A stretch of DNA of 64,000 bases, taken from contig NZ_JAPKNH010000001.1 in NCBI RefSeq assembly GCF_026344005.1, positions 1,054,001 through 1,118,000 on the forward strand, in the 5' to 3' direction. A program made the position numbers and the translations under genes. The notes beneath the pieces were generated by a model. The model saw nothing but the letters and a program-made list of their open reading frames with translations, did no database searches and was not told the origin of the DNA. Of the stretch, positions 50,553-59,087 are shown one piece after another. This stretch comes from Kaistia terrae. GTDB taxonomy: Bacteria > Pseudomonadota > Alphaproteobacteria > Rhizobiales > Kaistiaceae. Every line of letters begins with the position of its first letter. Position 1 is the stretch's first letter.

Positions 50553-51230
50553 TCAGTTCAAGCTTTCATTCAGACGAAGGTTTACACCCTGCCAAATCGC
50601 GTCGGCGACCTGATCCTGGGTCTGGTTGGCGTCAATGACGAGGCAGCGCTCCGGTTCGTGCGCTGCAATCGCCAGGAACAGGTCGCGGCGGCGAGCGTGC
50701 CGCTCGACAGTCTCGCGCTCGAAGCGGTCGGCCGGCCCCGCCTCGCCGCTTCGGCGTCTGGCAGCCCGGCCAAGGCCAATCTCGACAGGAAGATCAAGGA
50801 CCAGAGTCAGATCCGGCCGCACATTGCCGATGGCGACCTTTTCCAGTCCATCGAGCAGCTTCGCATCGACGCCATCCGATCCCTGGTAGGCGCGAGTTGA
50901 ATCGATGAAGCGGTCGCAAAGTACCCAGTCGCCGCGCGCCAGCGCCGGCCGGATCAGCCGGTCGACATGGTCGGCGCGTGCCGCCGCGAACAGCATCGTC
51001 TCGGCCTCGGGGCCCAGACCCTCGGCAGCCCCGGAGAGGATGAAGGTGCGGATCTGCTCGGCCATCTCCGTGCCGCCCGGCTCGCGGGTCACCACGACGG
51101 TCAGCCCATGCTCGCGCAGGCGATCGGCCAGGCGTCGGATCTGGGTCGATTTCCCAGAACCCTCCCCGCCTTCAAAAGTGATGAACCGGCCCGGCAAACG
51201 CGTCGTCATTTCCCGTGGCATCATTTCCAT
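50553..51230 (-). CDS. tmk: Thymidylate kinase
   Basis: A 225-residue kinase converting dTMP to dTDP. The P-loop is FEGGEGSGKSTQ, followed by TREPGGTEMAEQIR, the DR(Y/F)-type CDRFIDSTRAYQG and the arginine-rich lid. The start is uncertain: in-frame ATG codons exist at 51230, 51224, 51221 and 51209, and the conserved part begins just after the last one. It overlaps the upstream dac-like gene by ten bases or fewer. Confidence 0.94.
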   Translation of the reverse strand: MEMMPREMTTRLPGRFITFEGGEGSGKSTQIRRLADRLREHGLTVVVTREPGGTEMAEQIRTFILSGAAEGLGPEAETMLFAAARADHVDRLIRPALARGDWVLCDRFIDSTRAYQGSDGVDAKLLDGLEKVAIGNVRPDLTLVLDLPVEIGLGRAARRRSGEAGPADRFERETVERHARRRDLFLAIAAHEPERCLVIDANQTQDQVADAIWQGVNLRLNESLN

Positions 51231-52408
51231 TGTGGCAACCAACCGATCAGCAATTGCCGAACGGCGTCGAGGGCCCGCTGATCCATTGTGCCTCTAGCGA
51301 TGGCTGCCGTTGTGAACAGCGGCTTTTCCAGAACCTCGGCATCGCCGACCCAGATCCGAACGATGCCGACCTGTCTGCCCTGCTCGACCGGCGCGATCAA
51401 GGGCCCGCTATAGCTGATCCGGGCGCGGATGCGCTCGCGATTGCCTCGCATCAACAGGATGTCGAGCGGCTCCTGCGTCGCGAGTCCCACCGAACCCGAT
51501 GCGCCGCCATAGACCCGCGCGTCGCCTACCGCCTCGCCGCGGTCGAAGAAACGCAGCCGTTCGAAGGCGGTGTTGCCCCAGTCGAGCAGCTTGCGCGCCT
51601 CTTCGGCGCGGTCCTTGTCGCTTTCGAGGCCGCTGATCACGACGATCATACGGTGGCCGTCACGAACTGCCGAAGCCGTCAGGCCATAGCCTGATTCCTT
51701 CGTGAAGCCCGTCGAAAGCCCGTCCGCGCCAATGCCGGCCGAGAGCAGCGGATTGCGATTGCGCTGATAGATGTTGTTCCAGGTGAAATCCGGCTCCGAA
51801 TAGATCTTGTAGAGGTCCGGATAGGTGCGGATCAGATAGTCGGCGATCTTGTACAGATCCTGGGCCGTGACCTTCTGAGCCGGGTCGGGCAAGCCCGAAA
51901 CATTGGTGAAATGCGACCCCGTCAGGCCCAATTCCTTGGCCTTGCGGTTCATCATCTCGACAAAACCGCCCTCCGAGCCGGCGATCCCTTCGGCGAGGAT
52001 AATGCAGGCGTCGTTGCCGGCCTGCACGATCGCGCCGCGCAGCAGGTCGGCGACGGAGATCGTCGATTTCAGCTTGGCGAACATGGTGGCGCTGCCGGAA
52101 GGCGCCCCGCCCGTCCGCCAGGCGAATTCGCTGACCGGAAAACTGTCCTGAAGATGGATCTTGCCGGCGCGGATGGCGTCGAACACGACCGCCATCGTCA
52201 TCATCTTGGCCATGGCGGCCGGCTGGAACGCCGCGTCCTCTTCCTTGCTGAAGAGAATGGTGCCGGAATCGACGTCGACGAGCAGCGCGCTGGCGGCCTT
52301 GCTCTCATAGGGCGCTGCAATAGCGGAGCGTGGCCCCACAACCGCGCCAAGGACCATGAAAATGGCCAGCACGAGGGAAAAACGCAGCGGGAACCAGCAG
52401 GAAATCAT
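51221..52408 (-). CDS. D-alanyl-D-alanine carboxypeptidase-like protein lacking all catalytic motifs
   Basis: A 395-residue exported protein with a signal peptide (cleaved near SAIAAPYE), a peptidase S11 domain and a C-terminal PBP5-type domain. It aligns along its full length with DacA-type enzymes (ALLVDVDSGTILFSKEEDAAF, NDACIILAEGIAG, ESGYGLTASAV). The nucleophile motif SxxK reads A65-M-A-K68, SxN reads A130-G-N132, and KTG reads S232-T-G234. All three changes are clear in the DNA (GCC at 52214-52216, TCG at 51713-51715). It should therefore not hydrolyse peptidoglycan and may be a structural or regulatory pseudoenzyme. It sits between rlpA and tmk, where other Rhizobiales have dacA. Confidence 0.88.
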   Translation of the reverse strand: MISCWFPLRFSLVLAIFMVLGAVVGPRSAIAAPYESKAASALLVDVDSGTILFSKEEDAAFQPAAMAKMMTMAVVFDAIRAGKIHLQDSFPVSEFAWRTGGAPSGSATMFAKLKSTISVADLLRGAIVQAGNDACIILAEGIAGSEGGFVEMMNRKAKELGLTGSHFTNVSGLPDPAQKVTAQDLYKIADYLIRTYPDLYKIYSEPDFTWNNIYQRNRNPLLSAGIGADGLSTGFTKESGYGLTASAVRDGHRMIVVISGLESDKDRAEEARKLLDWGNTAFERLRFFDRGEAVGDARVYGGASGSVGLATQEPLDILLMRGNRERIRARISYSGPLIAPVEQGRQVGIVRIWVGDAEVLEKPLFTTAAIARGTMDQRALDAVRQLLIGWLPQWK

Positions 52409-52502
52409 CACCAAATGCCGGGCGCCTAAACCAGAGAAGGAGCGGCGCGAAGCCGCTCTCTTCTGGTTAACAGGCTCGGTACCCTACGATCAATGCTGGT
52501 GG

Positions 52503-53849
52503 TCAGCGGACGACCAGATAGGCACCGGACAAACCGGCTGCTTTCGCCGCGGCGACGGCATCGACGCCGCTCGACGCGCCATCGGCCAACACAAGTCGAA
52601 GCGACTGCATGGGGCGTCCATCGACGTCGATGCGTGTCGACGTGACCCGGCCGAGCCCTGCGAACTTGCCGGCAACGGCTTGGGCATTGGCGGAATTGGA
52701 AAACACGCCAAGCTGGACCACGTCGGCATCGGCGCTGCGCTCGGACGCGACCCGACGGACAGCGTCATCAAGCGAGGCCTGCAGCTTCTCGCGGCCCGAG
52801 GCGCCGGAAGCCATTTCTGCTGCGGCCTGCTGCGCCGGCGATGTCGCCAGATCGGCCGCATAGGACGAACGGGCCGAGCGCCGGACGGGCAAAGCATATT
52901 CGTCCGGCATCGGGGCCGGTTCGGCGTCGGAATATCCGACCGGGCTGTTGACGGTAAAGGAGCCGAGCGAGCGCTCGCCGTAATTGCTGCCTTCGACGCT
53001 CGGAGCCGCATCCGCAACGACGCGCCGCGCCGGCTGGGCTTCGGAATAGGCGATTGCCGGATCGAAAGCGCCGCCGTTTTCATAATAGTCGGGGCGCGAG
53101 CGCGGTATCGGAGCCAACGCCGCCATGACGATGGCCGGATTGGCGCTCGGCGCCTGCATGACCGGAGCCATAGCGAGCATGGTGTCGCCCGAGGTGCTGC
53201 TGCCGGGCCCCTTATAGGAAGCGAGCAGCATGCGCTGGTCATGGCCTTCCATCTTGGCGGGGCCGATATATTCGACCTTCACCTTGGCGGTGCCGTGATG
53301 CTTCATGTCGAGCACTTCGGCCGTCCGCGAGGAAAGATCCATCACGCGGTCGCTGGCATATGGTCCGCGATCGTTTACGCGGACCATGACCGAGCGGCCA
53401 TTGCGCATATTGGTGACGCGCGCATAGCTCGGCAGCGGCATGGTGGGATGGGCGGCCGAGAGGCCGTCCATGTCATAGACCTCGCCATTGGCCGTGTAGC
53501 GGCCATGGAAGGCGGAACCATACCAGGAAGCGTAGCCGACGGCGGTATATCGCTTGTTCTCGAACGGCTTATAGACCCGGCCCTTTACCGTATAGGGCTT
53601 GCCTACCATATAGCGACCGCCGCCCTGCGGAACCTTCTGGCCATACTGGACCACGCGCGGGCTGGCTTTGACGCCATATTCCTTTTCGGAGAAATATTCC
53701 TTGCTGCGCTTGGCAGGCTTTGTTGGGGCGGTGGCGCAAGAAGCGAGGAGAGCGGCGGCGGCGACTGCGGTCGCGGCCTTCAGCATCACCCTGCCCTGCG
53801 GCGCTTCCGAGCCAAACAGGCCCAGAATCTGTTTTTTTGAAATCCCCAT
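52503..53849 (-). CDS. rlpA: Septal ring lytic transglycosylase RlpA, lipoprotein with SPOR domain
   Basis: A protein of about 448 residues. A lipobox (LLASC) suggests outer-membrane anchoring. The double-psi beta-barrel catalytic domain follows, with GYASWYGSAFHGRYTANGE and VRVNDRGPYASDR, which hold the expected acidic residues. After a long disordered linker a C-terminal SPOR domain (about the last 75 residues) binds denuded septal glycan. The start is uncertain: ATG at 53849 or, with a more standard lipoprotein signal, ATG at 53786 (MLKAATAVAAAALLASC). It is the first gene of the block with the inactivated dac homologue, suggesting a division-related role for both. Confidence 0.9.
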   Translation of the reverse strand: MGISKKQILGLFGSEAPQGRVMLKAATAVAAAALLASCATAPTKPAKRSKEYFSEKEYGVKASPRVVQYGQKVPQGGGRYMVGKPYTVKGRVYKPFENKRYTAVGYASWYGSAFHGRYTANGEVYDMDGLSAAHPTMPLPSYARVTNMRNGRSVMVRVNDRGPYASDRVMDLSSRTAEVLDMKHHGTAKVKVEYIGPAKMEGHDQRMLLASYKGPGSSTSGDTMLAMAPVMQAPSANPAIVMAALAPIPRSRPDYYENGGAFDPAIAYSEAQPARRVVADAAPSVEGSNYGERSLGSFTVNSPVGYSDAEPAPMPDEYALPVRRSARSSYAADLATSPAQQAAAEMASGASGREKLQASLDDAVRRVASERSADADVVQLGVFSNSANAQAVAGKFAGLGRVTSTRIDVDGRPMQSLRLVLADGASSGVDAVAAAKAAGLSGAYLVVR

Positions 53850-54164
53850 CTCGCCTATCCGATAGCAGCAACCGAAGAACTTGTCGATCTGATCGACGGG
53901 CGCCGACGCCTTTCGGGCCTGAAGGACATCGCGAAAACGGCGCGACACTCCAGCAAGCATGAACCCGCATTCAGCCGGTTTGGCCTTTCCGGCTGGTTAA
54001 TCAACCGTGGCCGAAATGCGTCAAATACATGGAACAACCGGGACTCGGGCTGGAGGGTTAATCAATTGCCCTCGTTTCGAGCGTGTTGGGCCGTCATCCA
54101 CATCTGGATGGAAGGTTCCACTTGCATTCGGATCAAGGGTTCAGCATTGATCCCGGATTGACCC
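53850..54164. other. Gene-free stretch between rlpA and tRNA-Ser
   Basis: This stretch should contain the divergent promoters of rlpA and the tRNA gene. I find no confident -35/-10 pair and no gene. A short GGTTAATCAACC motif lies near 53994-54005. If rlpA starts further upstream, part of this region would be coding. Confidence 0.45.
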
Positions 54165-54615: not shown

Positions 54616-55776
54616 ATGGCGGCAGATCAAACCACGGGAATCGCGATCATCGGCTGCGGCTATGTCGCCGATTCCTACCGGCAATGCCTGTCGCTGCATG
54701 CGGATACGCTGCGCCTCGCCGGCGCCTTTGACCGGGATCCGCAGCGCCTTGCCGCCTACACCGCGACATGGGGCGGCCGCGCCTATGCCTCGCTGGACGA
54801 GGTGCTGGCCGATGGTTCCTGCGCAATCCTGCTCAACTTGACTGATCCCGAAAGCCACGCCGCCGTGACGCAGGCAGCTATCGCCGCCGGCAAGCATGTG
54901 TACTCGGAAAAGCCACTGGCCATGACGGCAACCGAGGCGGCGACACTTCGCGACGCGGCGCGAAATGCCGGCGTGCGGCTTGCCTCCGCGCCGTGCAATC
55001 TGCTCGGCGAAAGCATGCAGACCGCCTGGGCCGCAATCCGCGCCGGGACGATCGGCAAGGTGCTTCTCGCCTATGCCGAGATCGACGACGGCATGATCCA
55101 TCGCGCCGGTTATGATTCCTGGGTCAGCCGCAGCGGCAAGCCATGGCCGGGACGCGGCGAATTCGAGACCGGCTGTACCTATGAACATGCCGGCTATGCG
55201 CTGACCGTCTTCGCCGCCCTGTTCGGTCCGGCGCGTCGCGTGACCTCCTTCGCGGCGCTGCTGGTCCCCGACAAGGGCACCACGCCGCCGCTTGCGCATC
55301 CCGCGCCGGATTTTTCCGTCGGCTGCATCGAATATGACAATGGCGTCGTTGTGCGGCTGACCAATTCCATCGTCGCGCCCTATGACCACCGGATGCGGAT
55401 CATCGGCGAGACCGGAACGATCGAAATCAAGGAACCCTGGGACTACGCCTCGCCTGTCATCCTGCGCCGTCCGGGCCAGGGCCGGATCGCGCGCTTCATC
55501 GAACGTCGACTCGGCGGCGGTCTCGGCAAGCGCCTGCCGATGGCGCGGCGCGTGCCGTTCAAGGGCGGGCGCGGCAAGCCGACCATGGACTTTCTGCGCG
55601 GGCCAGCCGAGTTGGCCGCCGCGATCCGCGAGGACCGCCCGTCGCGGCTCGACGAGGATTTCGCCGTGCATGTGACGGAATTGACCGAAATGCTGCAGCA
55701 TCCCGAACGCTTCGACCGCCCTGCCCTTGTGCAATCGCGCTTCGCGCCGATCGAACCGATGGACTGGGCGCGATGA
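54616..55776 (+). CDS. Gfo/Idh/MocA family oxidoreductase
   Basis: A 386-residue NAD(P)-dependent sugar oxidoreductase. The N-terminal Rossmann motif IIGCGYVADSY and the family hallmark YSEKPLAMT with its catalytic lysine are clear, and the C-terminal alpha/beta domain has the expected size. In polysaccharide clusters these enzymes modify nucleotide or free sugars. The next gene overlaps by four bases (ATGA), so the two form an operon. Confidence 0.9.
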   Translation: MAADQTTGIAIIGCGYVADSYRQCLSLHADTLRLAGAFDRDPQRLAAYTATWGGRAYASLDEVLADGSCAILLNLTDPESHAAVTQAAIAAGKHVYSEKPLAMTATEAATLRDAARNAGVRLASAPCNLLGESMQTAWAAIRAGTIGKVLLAYAEIDDGMIHRAGYDSWVSRSGKPWPGRGEFETGCTYEHAGYALTVFAALFGPARRVTSFAALLVPDKGTTPPLAHPAPDFSVGCIEYDNGVVVRLTNSIVAPYDHRMRIIGETGTIEIKEPWDYASPVILRRPGQGRIARFIERRLGGGLGKRLPMARRVPFKGGRGKPTMDFLRGPAELAAAIREDRPSRLDEDFAVHVTELTEMLQHPERFDRPALVQSRFAPIEPMDWAR

Positions 55777-56723
55777 ACGCTACACCGCAAGCCAATCTGA
55801 TTACCTGCTCGTTCCGGGGCGATCTCGATGTCTGCCGGATGCTATGCGAGAGCATAGATCGTTTCGTACCCGCAACGATCCCGCACAGCCTCTATGTGCC
55901 GCGTGCCGACCTGAAGCTGTTCGCCGATCTCGCCTCGGACCGCCGCACGGTCGCGGCGCAGGAAGATTTACTGCCGAGCTGGTTCGTGAAGTTGCCGCTG
56001 CCGGGGCCGGAATGGCGCAAGCGGCTGCATCTGCCCCGCCGTAACATCTATGTGACGCCGTTCAGTCCGCCGGTGCGCGGCTGGATCGCGCAGCAGATCA
56101 TGAAGATCGCGGCCACGGCCAACGCCTCGGCCGAAATCGTCGCCCATATCGACAGTGACAATGTCTTCATCCGCCCCTTGACGCTCGAAGCCCTCGCCCG
56201 CGACGGCAAGGTGCGGATCTATCGCGATCCCGTGCGGGTCGAAATGGAGACACATCGCGTCTGGCAGGAGACGGCGGGAAGGCTGCTCGGCCTGCCATCC
56301 AGCCGCTATTATGGCGCGGAATACATCAATCCCTTTGTCGTCTGGCGCCGCTCCGTCATTCACGGCCTGATCGAGCGGATCGAGGGCATCGCCGGCCGCG
56401 ACTGGCGCATCGTCCTCGCCCGCACCCCGCATTTCGCCGAATATGTGCTGTACGGCGTCTATGCCGAGCAGGTGGTCGGCCTCGAACAAGCGGACCTGAT
56501 GCCGGAGGATTTCACGCTCTGCCATTCGCGATGGGGCGATGAATTCGCCGGCGCCGAAGACGAGGCGTCGTTCATCCGCTCGCTGCGGCCGGAGCATGTC
56601 ACCTGCCTGATCCAGTCGACCATCGATACGTCGATGGCGAAGCGGCGGGCGATCTTCGATCAGGTCGCAGCGCTTGCCGCCGAGCAGGATCAGGCGCGCT
56701 TGGGGGGGGGCGCCTCGCGGTAG
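55773..56723 (+). CDS. DUF6492-like putative glycosyltransferase
   Basis: A 316-residue protein resembling DUF6492 proteins of polysaccharide loci. It opens with LITCSFRGDLDVCRMLCESID and has a D-x-D-like metal/nucleotide-sugar motif in HIDSDNVFIRP, followed by EYINPFVVWRRSVI. It is probably a GT-A-fold transferase, but the activity is unproven. It is coupled to the oxidoreductase upstream. Its last codons include a run of nine G and overlap, on the opposite strand, the end of the convergent GT2 gene by 34 bases. Confidence 0.75.
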   Translation: MNATPQANLITCSFRGDLDVCRMLCESIDRFVPATIPHSLYVPRADLKLFADLASDRRTVAAQEDLLPSWFVKLPLPGPEWRKRLHLPRRNIYVTPFSPPVRGWIAQQIMKIAATANASAEIVAHIDSDNVFIRPLTLEALARDGKVRIYRDPVRVEMETHRVWQETAGRLLGLPSSRYYGAEYINPFVVWRRSVIHGLIERIEGIAGRDWRIVLARTPHFAEYVLYGVYAEQVVGLEQADLMPEDFTLCHSRWGDEFAGAEDEASFIRSLRPEHVTCLIQSTIDTSMAKRRAIFDQVAALAAEQDQARLGGGASR

Positions 56724-57721
56724 ACGGGATAGAGGCGGCCGAAGGACAATTTTCCCAGCACGCCGGCCCAGCGATAGCCAAAATCGGCCTTGGCCGCAGC
56801 CCCTTGTCGCCGGACGAGCGGATAGCGCAAGGCCAACAGCCCGAGTTGGACCATCGCCTTGGCGCGCAGCCAGCAGCGGGTGGCCAATGGCGCATCGCTG
56901 TTGCCGGCGACGGCCTCGGCATAGACCTGTCCGCCGGCAAAGAAGCGGCGGCGCAGATAGGCGGGATCGCAACGTCCGGCTGGGACGAATTCGAACACCC
57001 GCGCCTCCGGTAGCCAGCCGAACCGGCGGCCGCGCGCCTGCAGGCGGCAGAACAGATCGAGGTCTTCGCCGCCGGCATGGCCGAAGCGCGGATCGAACGG
57101 CTGGTCATCGGCAAGCGTTGTGGCGCGACGAAAGATCGAATTGCAGGTCGCCACCGTGATGGCGCGCTCTCCGCGCTTGCCGAGCGCCACGACATCCTGG
57201 CCCGATGGCGCCTCGATCTGGCGCGAGAACAGGGTCTGGATCGCCGGAGTCACGCGGTCAGGTGTCTCGAATACGGGATCGACGCCGCCGAAAAAAACGT
57301 CATGGGGATGTTCGCGCAGGCCGGCGACGACGGCGGCGAGCCAGCCCGGCGCCAGTTCCTCGTCGTCGTCGATGAAGGCGATGATCGGCGAGGTCGCGGC
57401 GGCGATGCCGACATTGCGCGCGACCGAGATATTGGCCGGATGCGCCGCGACATAGCGGATCTCGAACGGGCCGGCTGCATTGGCAGCTTCGACCACGGCG
57501 GCGGCCGAACCCTCATCGCTGTTGTCGGCGACGATGACGGTGAGGCTTGTCCCCTCCGGCAGAGTCTGCATGCGAATGCTCACCAGCGCCTTGGCGAGAA
57601 GATCCTCGCGTCGAAAGGTGCAGATGACGATCGAGAGATCGATCTCCGTCGCACCGGTTGTCGTAACCTTGCCCAAACCGCCTGCCCCCGCCCGTTCGTG
57701 CTCGTTCCTAGAGCAAAGCAT
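56690..57721 (-). CDS. Family 2 glycosyltransferase
   Basis: A 343-residue GT-A transferase. The N-terminal fold LSIVICTFRREDLLAKALVSI, the metal-binding IAFIDDDEE and the later GGEDLDLFCRL are typical of GT2. A C-terminal amphipathic or membrane-associated segment follows. The ATG at 57721 is chosen, overlapping the polymerase gene by 14 bases; an open frame from 57748 adds nine residues. It acts with the adjacent polymerase and the paralogous transferase at 59296 in building the repeat unit. Confidence 0.88.
   Translation of the reverse strand: MLCSRNEHERAGAGGLGKVTTTGATEIDLSIVICTFRREDLLAKALVSIRMQTLPEGTSLTVIVADNSDEGSAAAVVEAANAAGPFEIRYVAAHPANISVARNVGIAAATSPIIAFIDDDEELAPGWLAAVVAGLREHPHDVFFGGVDPVFETPDRVTPAIQTLFSRQIEAPSGQDVVALGKRGERAITVATCNSIFRRATTLADDQPFDPRFGHAGGEDLDLFCRLQARGRRFGWLPEARVFEFVPAGRCDPAYLRRRFFAGGQVYAEAVAGNSDAPLATRCWLRAKAMVQLGLLALRYPLVRRQGAAAKADFGYRWAGVLGKLSFGRLYPVYREAPPPKRA
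56702..56710. repeat. G9 homopolymer tract in the shared 3' ends of two convergent genes
   Basis: Nine consecutive G lie inside both the DUF6492-like gene (plus strand) and the GT2 gene (minus strand), a few codons before each stop. Slippage here would change only the final residues and stop position of both proteins. It is the longest homopolymer noticed in the window. Confidence 0.85.
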
Positions 57722-59087
57722 CGTGCGCGGCCATGCGAGAACCGCCACCGGCCAGATGTTGCGGCCGACCGTCGGCGAGATCCCGGCTGCGCGACAACAC
57801 GAACAGGAACAGAACCGCGACGTTCGAAAGCACCGCGCCGCGCATGAACAAGGTCGCCTCGGTCAGATTGTGCAGGAGATAGAGCCAGAGCAGCATGGCC
57901 ATGAAGCCGATCGCCGCACGATCCGGGCGCGGTAGCGCGCGCGCGCTCGCCTGCGCCGTGCCGGATAGAGCCCCGTTCAGGACGATCAGGACGGCGACAA
58001 TCATCGCCGGCAGGCCGAGATGCAGCCAGAGCTCCAGATAGCCGTTATGCGCCTGGTTGATGGTGCCGATGTCGACGTCGCCGAGCCAGGTTCCCGGCTC
58101 CAGGCGCTGTAGCGGATCGGCCGCCAAGCCGACATCCCAGAACGCGCCATAGCCATGGCCGAACCAGAAGCGCTCCTCCGCCGAACGCAGCGCGAAGGCC
58201 CAGAGTTCGTCGCGGCCGGTAAAGGACGCATCGCCCAGCGTCGCCGTCAGCACCCGGTTAGTGTCAAAATCGAAGACCGCGAACAGGCCAAGCAGCCCGG
58301 CCAGCCCGACAAGGCCAACAAAGATCATCAGCAGGATAAAGCGAGCCCCCCGCCATTCGGCGCAGGCGAACAGGGCGATGAGCATCAGCGCGGCGCCGGC
58401 GAGGCCGATCGACGTCTTGGAGCGGGTGAGAACGAGAAACAGGATCGCCGGGGCCAACATCAGCGCAGCGATCAGGACCGAGCGCGCGCGCGTCGCGCCG
58501 AGCATCCAGGTGGCGCCCGCGACGACCGTGATCATCGCTACCAGGCCGGCGACATTCTTCTGGCTGTAGAGCCCGCGCACGCCGATGTCGGTGATGGCGA
58601 CGCCGGGCCAGAGTGCGGTCCCGACCAGATTGACCAGCATGACCAGCGTCAGGCCGACGAACCAGGTCGTGTGGAACCGGCGCAGATCCTGAAGACTGGC
58701 CGCGATCCCGGCCGCAATGGTGGTCAGGAAGACGAGAAGCAGAGCCCGACGCAGTGTTAGGCCAGGATAATCGGACCAGACGAAGCTCAGCAGAGAGAAG
58801 CCGGTCAGAGCGACCAGCGGCAGGTTGCGGAGACAAAGCGACAGCGCGGCGCGGTAATGAACGACAAGGGCCACCAGCGCCAGCGCGAAAAGCCCCAGCA
58901 CGACGAGACGGTCGAGCGGGCTGCCTTCAAGACGTTCGGCTACCGAAGCATCGGCGAACGGGCGCGTGCCGACCAGCGTATAAGCCATGAAGCCGACCAG
59001 CAGCACGCCATGCAGCCCGAACGCGCCGACGACGCTGCGCGCGTCGCTCGCCGCGCGCAGTTCAACCGGTATCGGGGCATCACTCAT
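57708..59087 (-). CDS. O-antigen ligase/polymerase family protein (Wzy/ExoQ-like)
   Basis: A 459-residue protein with about eleven or twelve transmembrane segments. The periplasmic loop contains FTGRDELWAFALRSAEERFWFGHGYGAF and QAHNGYLELWLHLG, features of the Wzy_C/ExoQ group that polymerise lipid-linked repeat units or ligate O-antigen. It overlaps the GT2 gene downstream. A Wzx-like flippase is encoded at the right edge, so a Wzx/Wzy-dependent exopolysaccharide is the simplest reading. Confidence 0.88.
   Translation of the reverse strand: MSDAPIPVELRAASDARSVVGAFGLHGVLLVGFMAYTLVGTRPFADASVAERLEGSPLDRLVVLGLFALALVALVVHYRAALSLCLRNLPLVALTGFSLLSFVWSDYPGLTLRRALLLVFLTTIAAGIAASLQDLRRFHTTWFVGLTLVMLVNLVGTALWPGVAITDIGVRGLYSQKNVAGLVAMITVVAGATWMLGATRARSVLIAALMLAPAILFLVLTRSKTSIGLAGAALMLIALFACAEWRGARFILLMIFVGLVGLAGLLGLFAVFDFDTNRVLTATLGDASFTGRDELWAFALRSAEERFWFGHGYGAFWDVGLAADPLQRLEPGTWLGDVDIGTINQAHNGYLELWLHLGLPAMIVAVLIVLNGALSGTAQASARALPRPDRAAIGFMAMLLWLYLLHNLTEATLFMRGAVLSNVAVLFLFVLSRSRDLADGRPQHLAGGGSRMAAHDALL

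Follow-up and report, generated by a model that had tools for sequence, protein, structure and literature searches.

The 64,000-nucleotide stretch of the Kaistia terrae genome analysed here (hereafter the window; contig NZ_JAPKNH010000001.1, positions 1,054,001 to 1,118,000) harbours, between rlpA and tmk, a gene for a penicillin-binding protein (PBP) of the PBP5/DacA type in which all three catalytic motifs are altered. Judging from its sequence, the protein is very probably both catalytically dead and maintained. No D,D-carboxypeptidase action would be expected of it: substitutions have removed the serine that is acylated, the serine of SxN and the lysine of KTG. Taking all the data together, the explanation that we consider the most convincing, and a probable one, is that the gene encodes a maintained pseudo-PBP5 whose role, in division or in polar growth of the wall, does not depend on catalysis. 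A DacA-type protein with three mutated motifs and an unbroken frame had been proposed from the DNA letters alone. Both points hold, as the motifs read AMAK, AGN and STG in the codons, the S11 and PBP5_C domains are recognized, and the open reading frame (ORF) has neither an internal stop nor a frameshift. The features of the protein and its two neighbours are as follows.

51221..52408, minus strand: pseudo-dacA, PBP5/DacA-type protein, 395 aa from the ATG, full-length ORF
52316..52408, minus strand: probable Sec signal peptide ending ...SAIA/A, judged by eye; helix 11-24 in the AlphaFold2 (AF2) model
52205..52216, minus strand: SxxK motif reading AMAK, codons GCC ATG GCC AAG; nucleophile Ser replaced by Ala, Lys kept
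52100..52120, minus strand: WRTGGAP loop, residues 99-105, from the ortholog alignment; ends in Pro105
52013..52021, minus strand: SxN motif reading AGN, codons GCC GGC AAC; Ser replaced by Ala, Asn kept
51707..51715, minus strand: KTG motif reading STG, codons TCG ACG GGC; Lys replaced by Ser
51632..52315, minus strand: Peptidase_S11 domain, residues 34-261 (PF00768, 1.1e-67; AF2 model; Foldseek matches to PBP5/PBP6)
51299..51565, minus strand: PBP5_C domain, residues 284-372 (PF07943, 3e-15)
51239..51286, minus strand: C-terminal helix, residues 377-392 (AF2 model), presumed to be a membrane anchor as in PBP5
52503..53960, minus strand: rlpA, DPBB_1 lytic transglycosylase family, upstream co-directional neighbour (ORF and domain search)
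50553..51242, minus strand: tmk, thymidylate kinase, downstream neighbour (ORF and domain search)

Residues are numbered from a TTG codon, which places the motifs at 67-70, 132-134 and 234-236. Two candidate starts, this TTG at 52414 (397 aa) and an ATG at 52408 (395 aa), lead to the same end at 51221. The ATG appears to be the likelier start, because it is conserved in all seven close Kaistia copies alignable at that site (L004-L010), whereas the same codon check found TTG serving as a start codon in the window's genome only. The predicted structure (AF2, 25-sequence alignment; pLDDT 88.1, pTM 0.78) has its best matches in the Protein Data Bank in PBP5 of Pseudomonas aeruginosa and PBP5 and PBP6 of Escherichia coli, with PBP5/PBP6 structures at Foldseek ranks 1-21 and TM-scores by target of 0.78-0.88. 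The SLTK, SGN and KTG motifs of P. aeruginosa PBP5 (4k91) align opposite AMAK, AGN and STG. The protein scores below the NCBIfam cut-offs for DacD (266.8 bits versus 610, its best match) and DacA (227.2 versus 694), but these models are narrow and carry little weight.

Within the best-conserved part of the protein, only the catalytic motifs are hit. Among the 38 alignment columns that are at least 97% conserved (weighted) in orthologs with intact motifs, 35 have the same predominant residue in the 14 sequences of the Kaistia clade, and the exceptions are exactly positions 67, 132 and 234. At a threshold of 85%, 78 of 86 columns agree, and the changes beyond the motifs amount to S109A and four conservative ones. 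The ortholog alignment shows that the pocket residues K70, N134, R220, D231, T235 and G236 are unchanged. The replacement of serine by alanine removes the nucleophile of the established S11 mechanism, so that acylation of the usual S11 kind would not be expected. In the Kaistia sequence around this site, PAAMAK, neither the motif nor its two neighbours on each flank include a Ser, Thr or Cys.

The triple change, namely Ala at the nucleophile position, AGN and STG, is common to all 14 genomes of the genus, whose SxxK site reads AMAK or AMVK, and to Prosthecomicrobium pneumaticum (G027), a member of the same family. Sequencing error is thus ruled out, because identical changes are found in independently sequenced species, and so is a private oddity of one genome, the change being genus-wide and losses being found across the order. 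The gene is under purifying selection, like the neighbouring tmk. In the dN/dS check that had been suggested, dac and tmk gave the same omega of 0.188 within Kaistia (22 close pairs from 13 sequences) by NG86, a method that is crude for GC-rich genomes and gives climbing ratios for distant pairs, with the neighbouring genes as internal controls. In the same close pairs dac dN was 0.95 times tmk dN, and in the pair G004-G005 the omega values were 0.115 for dac, 0.102 for tmk and 0.110 for rlpA. The ORF is full length throughout the genus, except for one split copy in a metagenome-assembled genome (G009, 720 contigs). These results support the sequence-only reading in its view that this is a maintained pseudoenzyme and not a dying gene.

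To place the Kaistia gene among its relatives, we used an even draw of 199 Hyphomicrobiales genomes, in which 173 had an ortholog at E <= 1e-60 and 172 had readable motifs. The motifs are intact in 122 of these and at least one catalytic residue is changed in the other 50, with losses in 13 of 46 families. An enlarged set of 280 loci, obtained by adding the remaining genomes of the window's family and part of family f23 (families, genomes and loci carry our own f, G and L numbers), comprises 177 intact copies, 102 changed ones and one fragment; it is uneven, as Kaistia and f23 are over-represented. We infer that f23 corresponds to Rhizobiaceae, because its genus g121 is marked as Agrobacterium by a telomere resolvase: 7 of the 11 matches of a search for this enzyme (PF16684) among 394 f23 genomes fall in g121, and linear chromosomes with their resolvase are features that we take to mark Agrobacterium. 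The 280 loci can be regarded as orthologs of one locus, since tmk lies downstream on the same strand in 273 and rlpA upstream in 239; 5 of the 7 loci without tmk are at a contig end, L341 and L373 being the others.

Outside the order, 102 sampled alphaproteobacterial genomes had a match at E <= 1e-45, and in the 48 of them that were read (the 28 with the highest scores plus 20 selected among the others) we found no catalytic loss; rlpA or tmk adjoins the gene in 47 of these 48. The difference between the order and the outside (50/172 versus 0/48) gives a Fisher p of 1e-6, uncorrected for kinship. Loss as a feature of all Alphaproteobacteria was accordingly not seen in those 48 of the 102 matching genomes. 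The expectation that the locus usually encodes a DacA with intact motifs in related genomes is borne out. As for the proposed alignment across the order, it shows a shared, mostly intact locus, but this genome is not alone in its loss, which recurs elsewhere, including in Agrobacterium. The change affects every copy read in f11, f13, f21, f24, f34, f41 and f50, and part of those in f1, f14, f23, f30, f35 and f42.

The 102 degenerate orthologs have mostly lost the KTG lysine (92) and the SxN serine (82), less often the SxxK serine (31), and 26 lack S67, S132 and K234 together; 89 are without two or more of the five scored residues. What replaces them varies by lineage, for example A, N, G, L, Q or Y for the SxN serine and S, V, G, A, M or E for the KTG lysine. 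In family f34 the site is altered in another way, with the SxxK lysine changed to Thr and the SxN asparagine to Gly (SMAT/SGG/KTG) and both serines and the KTG motif kept, in all six genomes read (L108, L109, L112, L121, L151, L155). Residual or altered catalysis, in which the protein would hydrolyse a peptidoglycan bond via other residues or act on a different substrate, might draw on Lys70, Asn134, Thr235 and Gly236, which Kaistia keeps, and on the SxxK serine retained in 71 of the 102 degenerate orthologs. However, the Kaistia AMAK motif and the two residues flanking it on each side contain no Ser, Thr or Cys, the SxN serine and KTG lysine are gone as well, and lineage-specific replacements fit a lost constraint and not a new active site. 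We therefore regard this alternative as very unlikely.

Loss at this locus is repeated yet clustered by descent. In a FastTree tree built without the motif columns (276 sequences, four fragments dropped), the changed copies fall into 18 maximal all-lost clades and need 11 changes under Fitch parsimony, which permits regains. A combined dac and tmk tree gives 19 clades and 13 changes, and the short tmk alone 29 and 29 (300 loci in both cases, 30 Agrobacterium copies having been added); shuffled labels need about 97 Fitch changes. Depending on tree and method, the number of losses thus ranges from 11 to 19, or 29 on the short tmk tree. The position of P. pneumaticum also varies: the dac and dac+tmk trees place it within the Kaistia clade, the tmk tree outside.

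Three S11 genes are present in the genome of the window. The two others, L002, which has a SPOR domain (SLTK/SAN/KTG), and L003 (SVTK/SAN/KTG), share the S11 domain with the pseudo-dacA product, but their motifs are intact and they lack PBP5_C. The suggested search for an intact second dacA was thus only partly borne out: two other intact S11 genes exist, but no second PBP5_C copy was found in the window's Kaistia genome. In every one of the 14 genus genomes the nearest S11 paralog has intact motifs (L019-L032), as has the second one in the two genomes where it was read (L003, L033). Elsewhere, 27 of 27 other S11 loci are intact (L257-L284 without L277, an ortholog fragment); they come from genomes that lack a full ortholog match. 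Loss as a general feature of S11 proteins in these genomes was therefore not seen. Genomes with a degenerate copy more often have at least four S11 genes (18/50 versus 13/123 in the remainder of the order sample; Fisher p = 3e-4, uncorrected for kinship). Extra S11 genes explain the losses at most partly, as Kaistia has just three.

Another comparison comes from genomes with two DacA-type matches, of which there are 12 among 151 f23 genomes. In all 12, it is the copy beside tmk that is degenerate (SAN/ETG, GAN/GTG and AAN/TTG being examples), and the unlinked copy has intact SxxK, SGN and KTG motifs. PBP5_C is kept in all duplicates tested, three copies of each kind. The copy linked to rlpA and tmk is therefore still kept, in degenerate form, where catalysis can be supplied elsewhere. 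The intact unlinked copies are L472, L473, L475, L478-L482 and L484-L487, and 11 of these 12 are without Pro105.

This residue, at the end of the WRxGGAP loop, is associated with loss. The degenerate orthologs carry it in 98 of 102 cases, the intact ones in 79 of 177; the contrast holds within f23 (42/44 versus 11/51) and f1 (16/17 versus 1/7), and in the duplicate pairs it is found in 12 of 12 linked copies versus 1 of 12 unlinked ones. Of the 18 all-lost clades, 16 mostly carry it (binomial p 1e-4, a rough value since tips are non-independent).

Comparison with characterized proteins helps to delimit what an inactive DacA might do. PBP5 (DacA) and PBP6 (DacC) of E. coli share with the Kaistia protein the S11 and PBP5_C domains, the predicted fold, a probable export signal and the C-terminal helix. 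The rlpA neighbour is presumably shared too, as we take the E. coli gene order to be rlpA-dacA. According to the available part of PMC4916385, E. coli PBP5 is active as a D,D-carboxypeptidase and required for cell shape, whereas all three motifs are changed in the Kaistia protein. The same source reports that inactive PBP5(S44G) worsens shape defects and that PBP6a 'may even protect some pentapeptides'. Both are S11 proteins that seem to be inactive as D,D-carboxypeptidases in cells and nevertheless have an effect, so that by analogy an inactive S11 protein can act in the cell. However, PBP5(S44G) is an engineered point mutant and PBP6a has a serine nucleophile (S66 in the same partial source), and neither is a natural lineage with three changed motifs. 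We found no report of natural S11 pseudoenzymes in the PMC literature, a weak negative because subscription journals are mostly outside it. A search of the literature on Kaistia peptidoglycan and the accessible sections of a paper on the Bradyrhizobium DD-CPase1 (PMC5567381) yielded nothing on them either.

The closest functional information concerns Agrobacterium. The ortholog is present in 39 of 39 g121 genomes, and the 31 copies read are all without the SxN serine and the KTG lysine (N[AG]N, GLG). L400, at 1.487-1.491 Mb on its contig, very probably corresponds to Atu1499 of A. fabrum C58. The sections of PMC9790009 available to us call Atu1499 of A. tumefaciens a DD-carboxypeptidase and Atu1500 RlpA, and report synthetically detrimental effects when insertions in either gene are combined with loss of the YejABEF recycling transporter. 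A single paper found in the PMC literature names Atu1499. In PMC11527210, as far as its accessible text goes, the wall of the order is described as unusually rich in L,D-crosslinks, and 'dac' as synthetically essential in A. tumefaciens without the Hyphomicrobiales L,D-transpeptidases (LDTs). We assume that this 'dac' is Atu1499, the gene number being absent from the main text. For Sinorhizobium meliloti, the part of PMC7327166 at hand lists a gene dac among four annotated DD-carboxypeptidases. Atu1499 and its Agrobacterium orthologs occupy the same rlpA-dac-tmk locus and have lost the same SxN serine and KTG lysine as the Kaistia protein, but they keep the nucleophile serine (SLAK or SLSK), which is Ala in Kaistia.

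Together, these data suggest a scenario in which the pseudo-PBP5 would be exported, given its signal peptide, would adopt the PBP5/DacA fold predicted by the model and would be anchored by its C-terminal helix. In Hyphomicrobiales, the DacA of the rlpA-tmk locus may have acquired, or already had, a second, non-catalytic job. Catalysis would then have been lost repeatedly there, with the protein kept, where other S11 enzymes could supply the carboxypeptidase activity. The likeliest job would be to take part in division or polar peptidoglycan synthesis as a membrane-bound partner or regulator, with a link to RlpA and to the order's L,D-transpeptidase-rich wall. The scaffold or regulator of division peptidoglycan that the sequence-only reading had suggested may be the mechanism, as may the shielding of pentapeptides. 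We regard a specific non-catalytic role in the cell wall as likely, well short of certain. The wider proposal is that this second function was so dominant that catalysis was discarded at the rlpA-tmk locus about a dozen times or more, often in proteins that carry the WRxGGAP loop, and then fell to other S11 enzymes, including a second DacA in some Rhizobiaceae. It is plausible, but we hold its chances to be slightly less than even.

Several observations weigh against the pseudo-PBP5 explanation or restrict its reach. Thirteen of the 102 degenerate orthologs are without just one of the five scored residues and may keep activity, and in 6 of the 12 duplicate pairs the linked copy keeps SxxK and SxN and is changed in KTG only. 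Pro105 would be at most permissive for loss, because many intact families carry it (79/177 orthologs), including intact copies of f30 and f35. Constraint is partly relaxed in degenerate lineages, since their dac genes are less alike at equal tmk identity (median identity 0.506 versus 0.643 for intact ones, within-family pairs at tmk identity 0.6-0.7) and Agrobacterium dac dN is twice tmk dN. The pocket has diverged in the other degenerate lineages, where T235 is kept in 47% and R220 in 62%; judging from this relaxation, pentapeptide binding cannot be the general function. The Agrobacterium phenotype is no proof of a non-catalytic role, because the nucleophile serine is kept there, and the insertions could be polar on tmk. 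Lastly, shape maintenance in E. coli requires PBP5 activity, according to the available text of PMC4916385.

The faster evolution of degenerate lineages would also suit slow decay, in which a redundant DacA is becoming a pseudogene, its frame staying open because the gene precedes the essential tmk in the operon. The two intact S11 paralogs in the window's genome and the directly downstream tmk point the same way. However, dac and tmk have equal omega in Kaistia, only the three catalytic positions have changed among the 38 most conserved columns, and the loss is old, spanning the genus and P. pneumaticum. The decay check also came out against decay: ORF length is 379-427 codons at 276 of the 280 loci, the other four (261-291 codons) are on contigs under 10 kb, and three of these run into the contig end. 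In the two-DacA genomes, moreover, the linked copy is kept despite catalytic redundancy. Slow decay thus appears quite unlikely, if somewhat less so than residual catalysis. The short ORF that does not reach its contig end, L254 (G091, a 1.4 Mb genome of f20), has intact motifs and ends inside the contig after about 291 codons; it may have lost PBP5_C.

A variant of the pseudo-PBP5 explanation deserves separate consideration. As the rest of its pocket is unchanged, the Kaistia protein may bind pentapeptide stems and shield or present them uncut, a mechanism that we put forward tentatively for Kaistia and hold to be less likely than not. In its pure form, a pentapeptide shield would bind D-Ala-D-Ala stems and protect them from active S11 enzymes, thereby tuning D,D- versus L,D-crosslinking. 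The behaviour of inactive PBP5 and PBP6a in E. coli (accessible part of PMC4916385) and the abundance of L,D-crosslinks in the order (accessible part of PMC11527210) agree with this. However, the pockets of other degenerate lineages have diverged, and affinity for D-Ala-D-Ala would be expected to be low without the KTG lysine and the SxN serine. The pure shield is hence doubtful, more so than pentapeptide binding in Kaistia as such.

The surroundings of the gene also call for some description. On the minus strand the order is rlpA, the DacA-type gene, tmk, and then holB-like and metG-like genes, these two being named from the ORF list; the longest tmk ORF overlaps the 3' end of the dacA-type gene. 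The tmk-holB-metG-tatD run (holB, metG and tatD named from the ORF list) is co-directional except where a GT90-type glycosyltransferase gene (PF05686; 46751-47791, plus strand) separates the metG-like gene from the tatD-like one. Beyond rlpA, at 54616-59087, lies a surface-polysaccharide-like cluster with a Gfo/Idh oxidoreductase, a DUF6492 protein, a GT2 glycosyltransferase and a Wzy_C O-antigen ligase/polymerase. As for the order at large, some Hyphomicrobiales have no DacA ortholog above the threshold; among them, G030, G080, G116 and G149 (f4, 1.3-1.4 Mb) have a single S11 gene, with intact motifs.

Low-molecular-weight PBPs are generally assumed to be enzymes. What is new here is the recurrent, locus-specific disarming of a PBP5 within one polar-growing order, with the protein kept each time. 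If the wider proposal of a dominant second function is true, several genes of the order that are annotated as D,D-carboxypeptidases, including that of Agrobacterium, would be pseudo-PBPs. The name 'dac' alone is insufficient to assign D,D-carboxypeptidase activity in Agrobacterium and other members of the order. The repeated disarming is also relevant to the wiring of polar growth and L,D-crosslinking in Hyphomicrobiales. If the non-catalytic role is real, these natural catalysis-free alleles would make it possible to study that role in isolation from carboxypeptidation.

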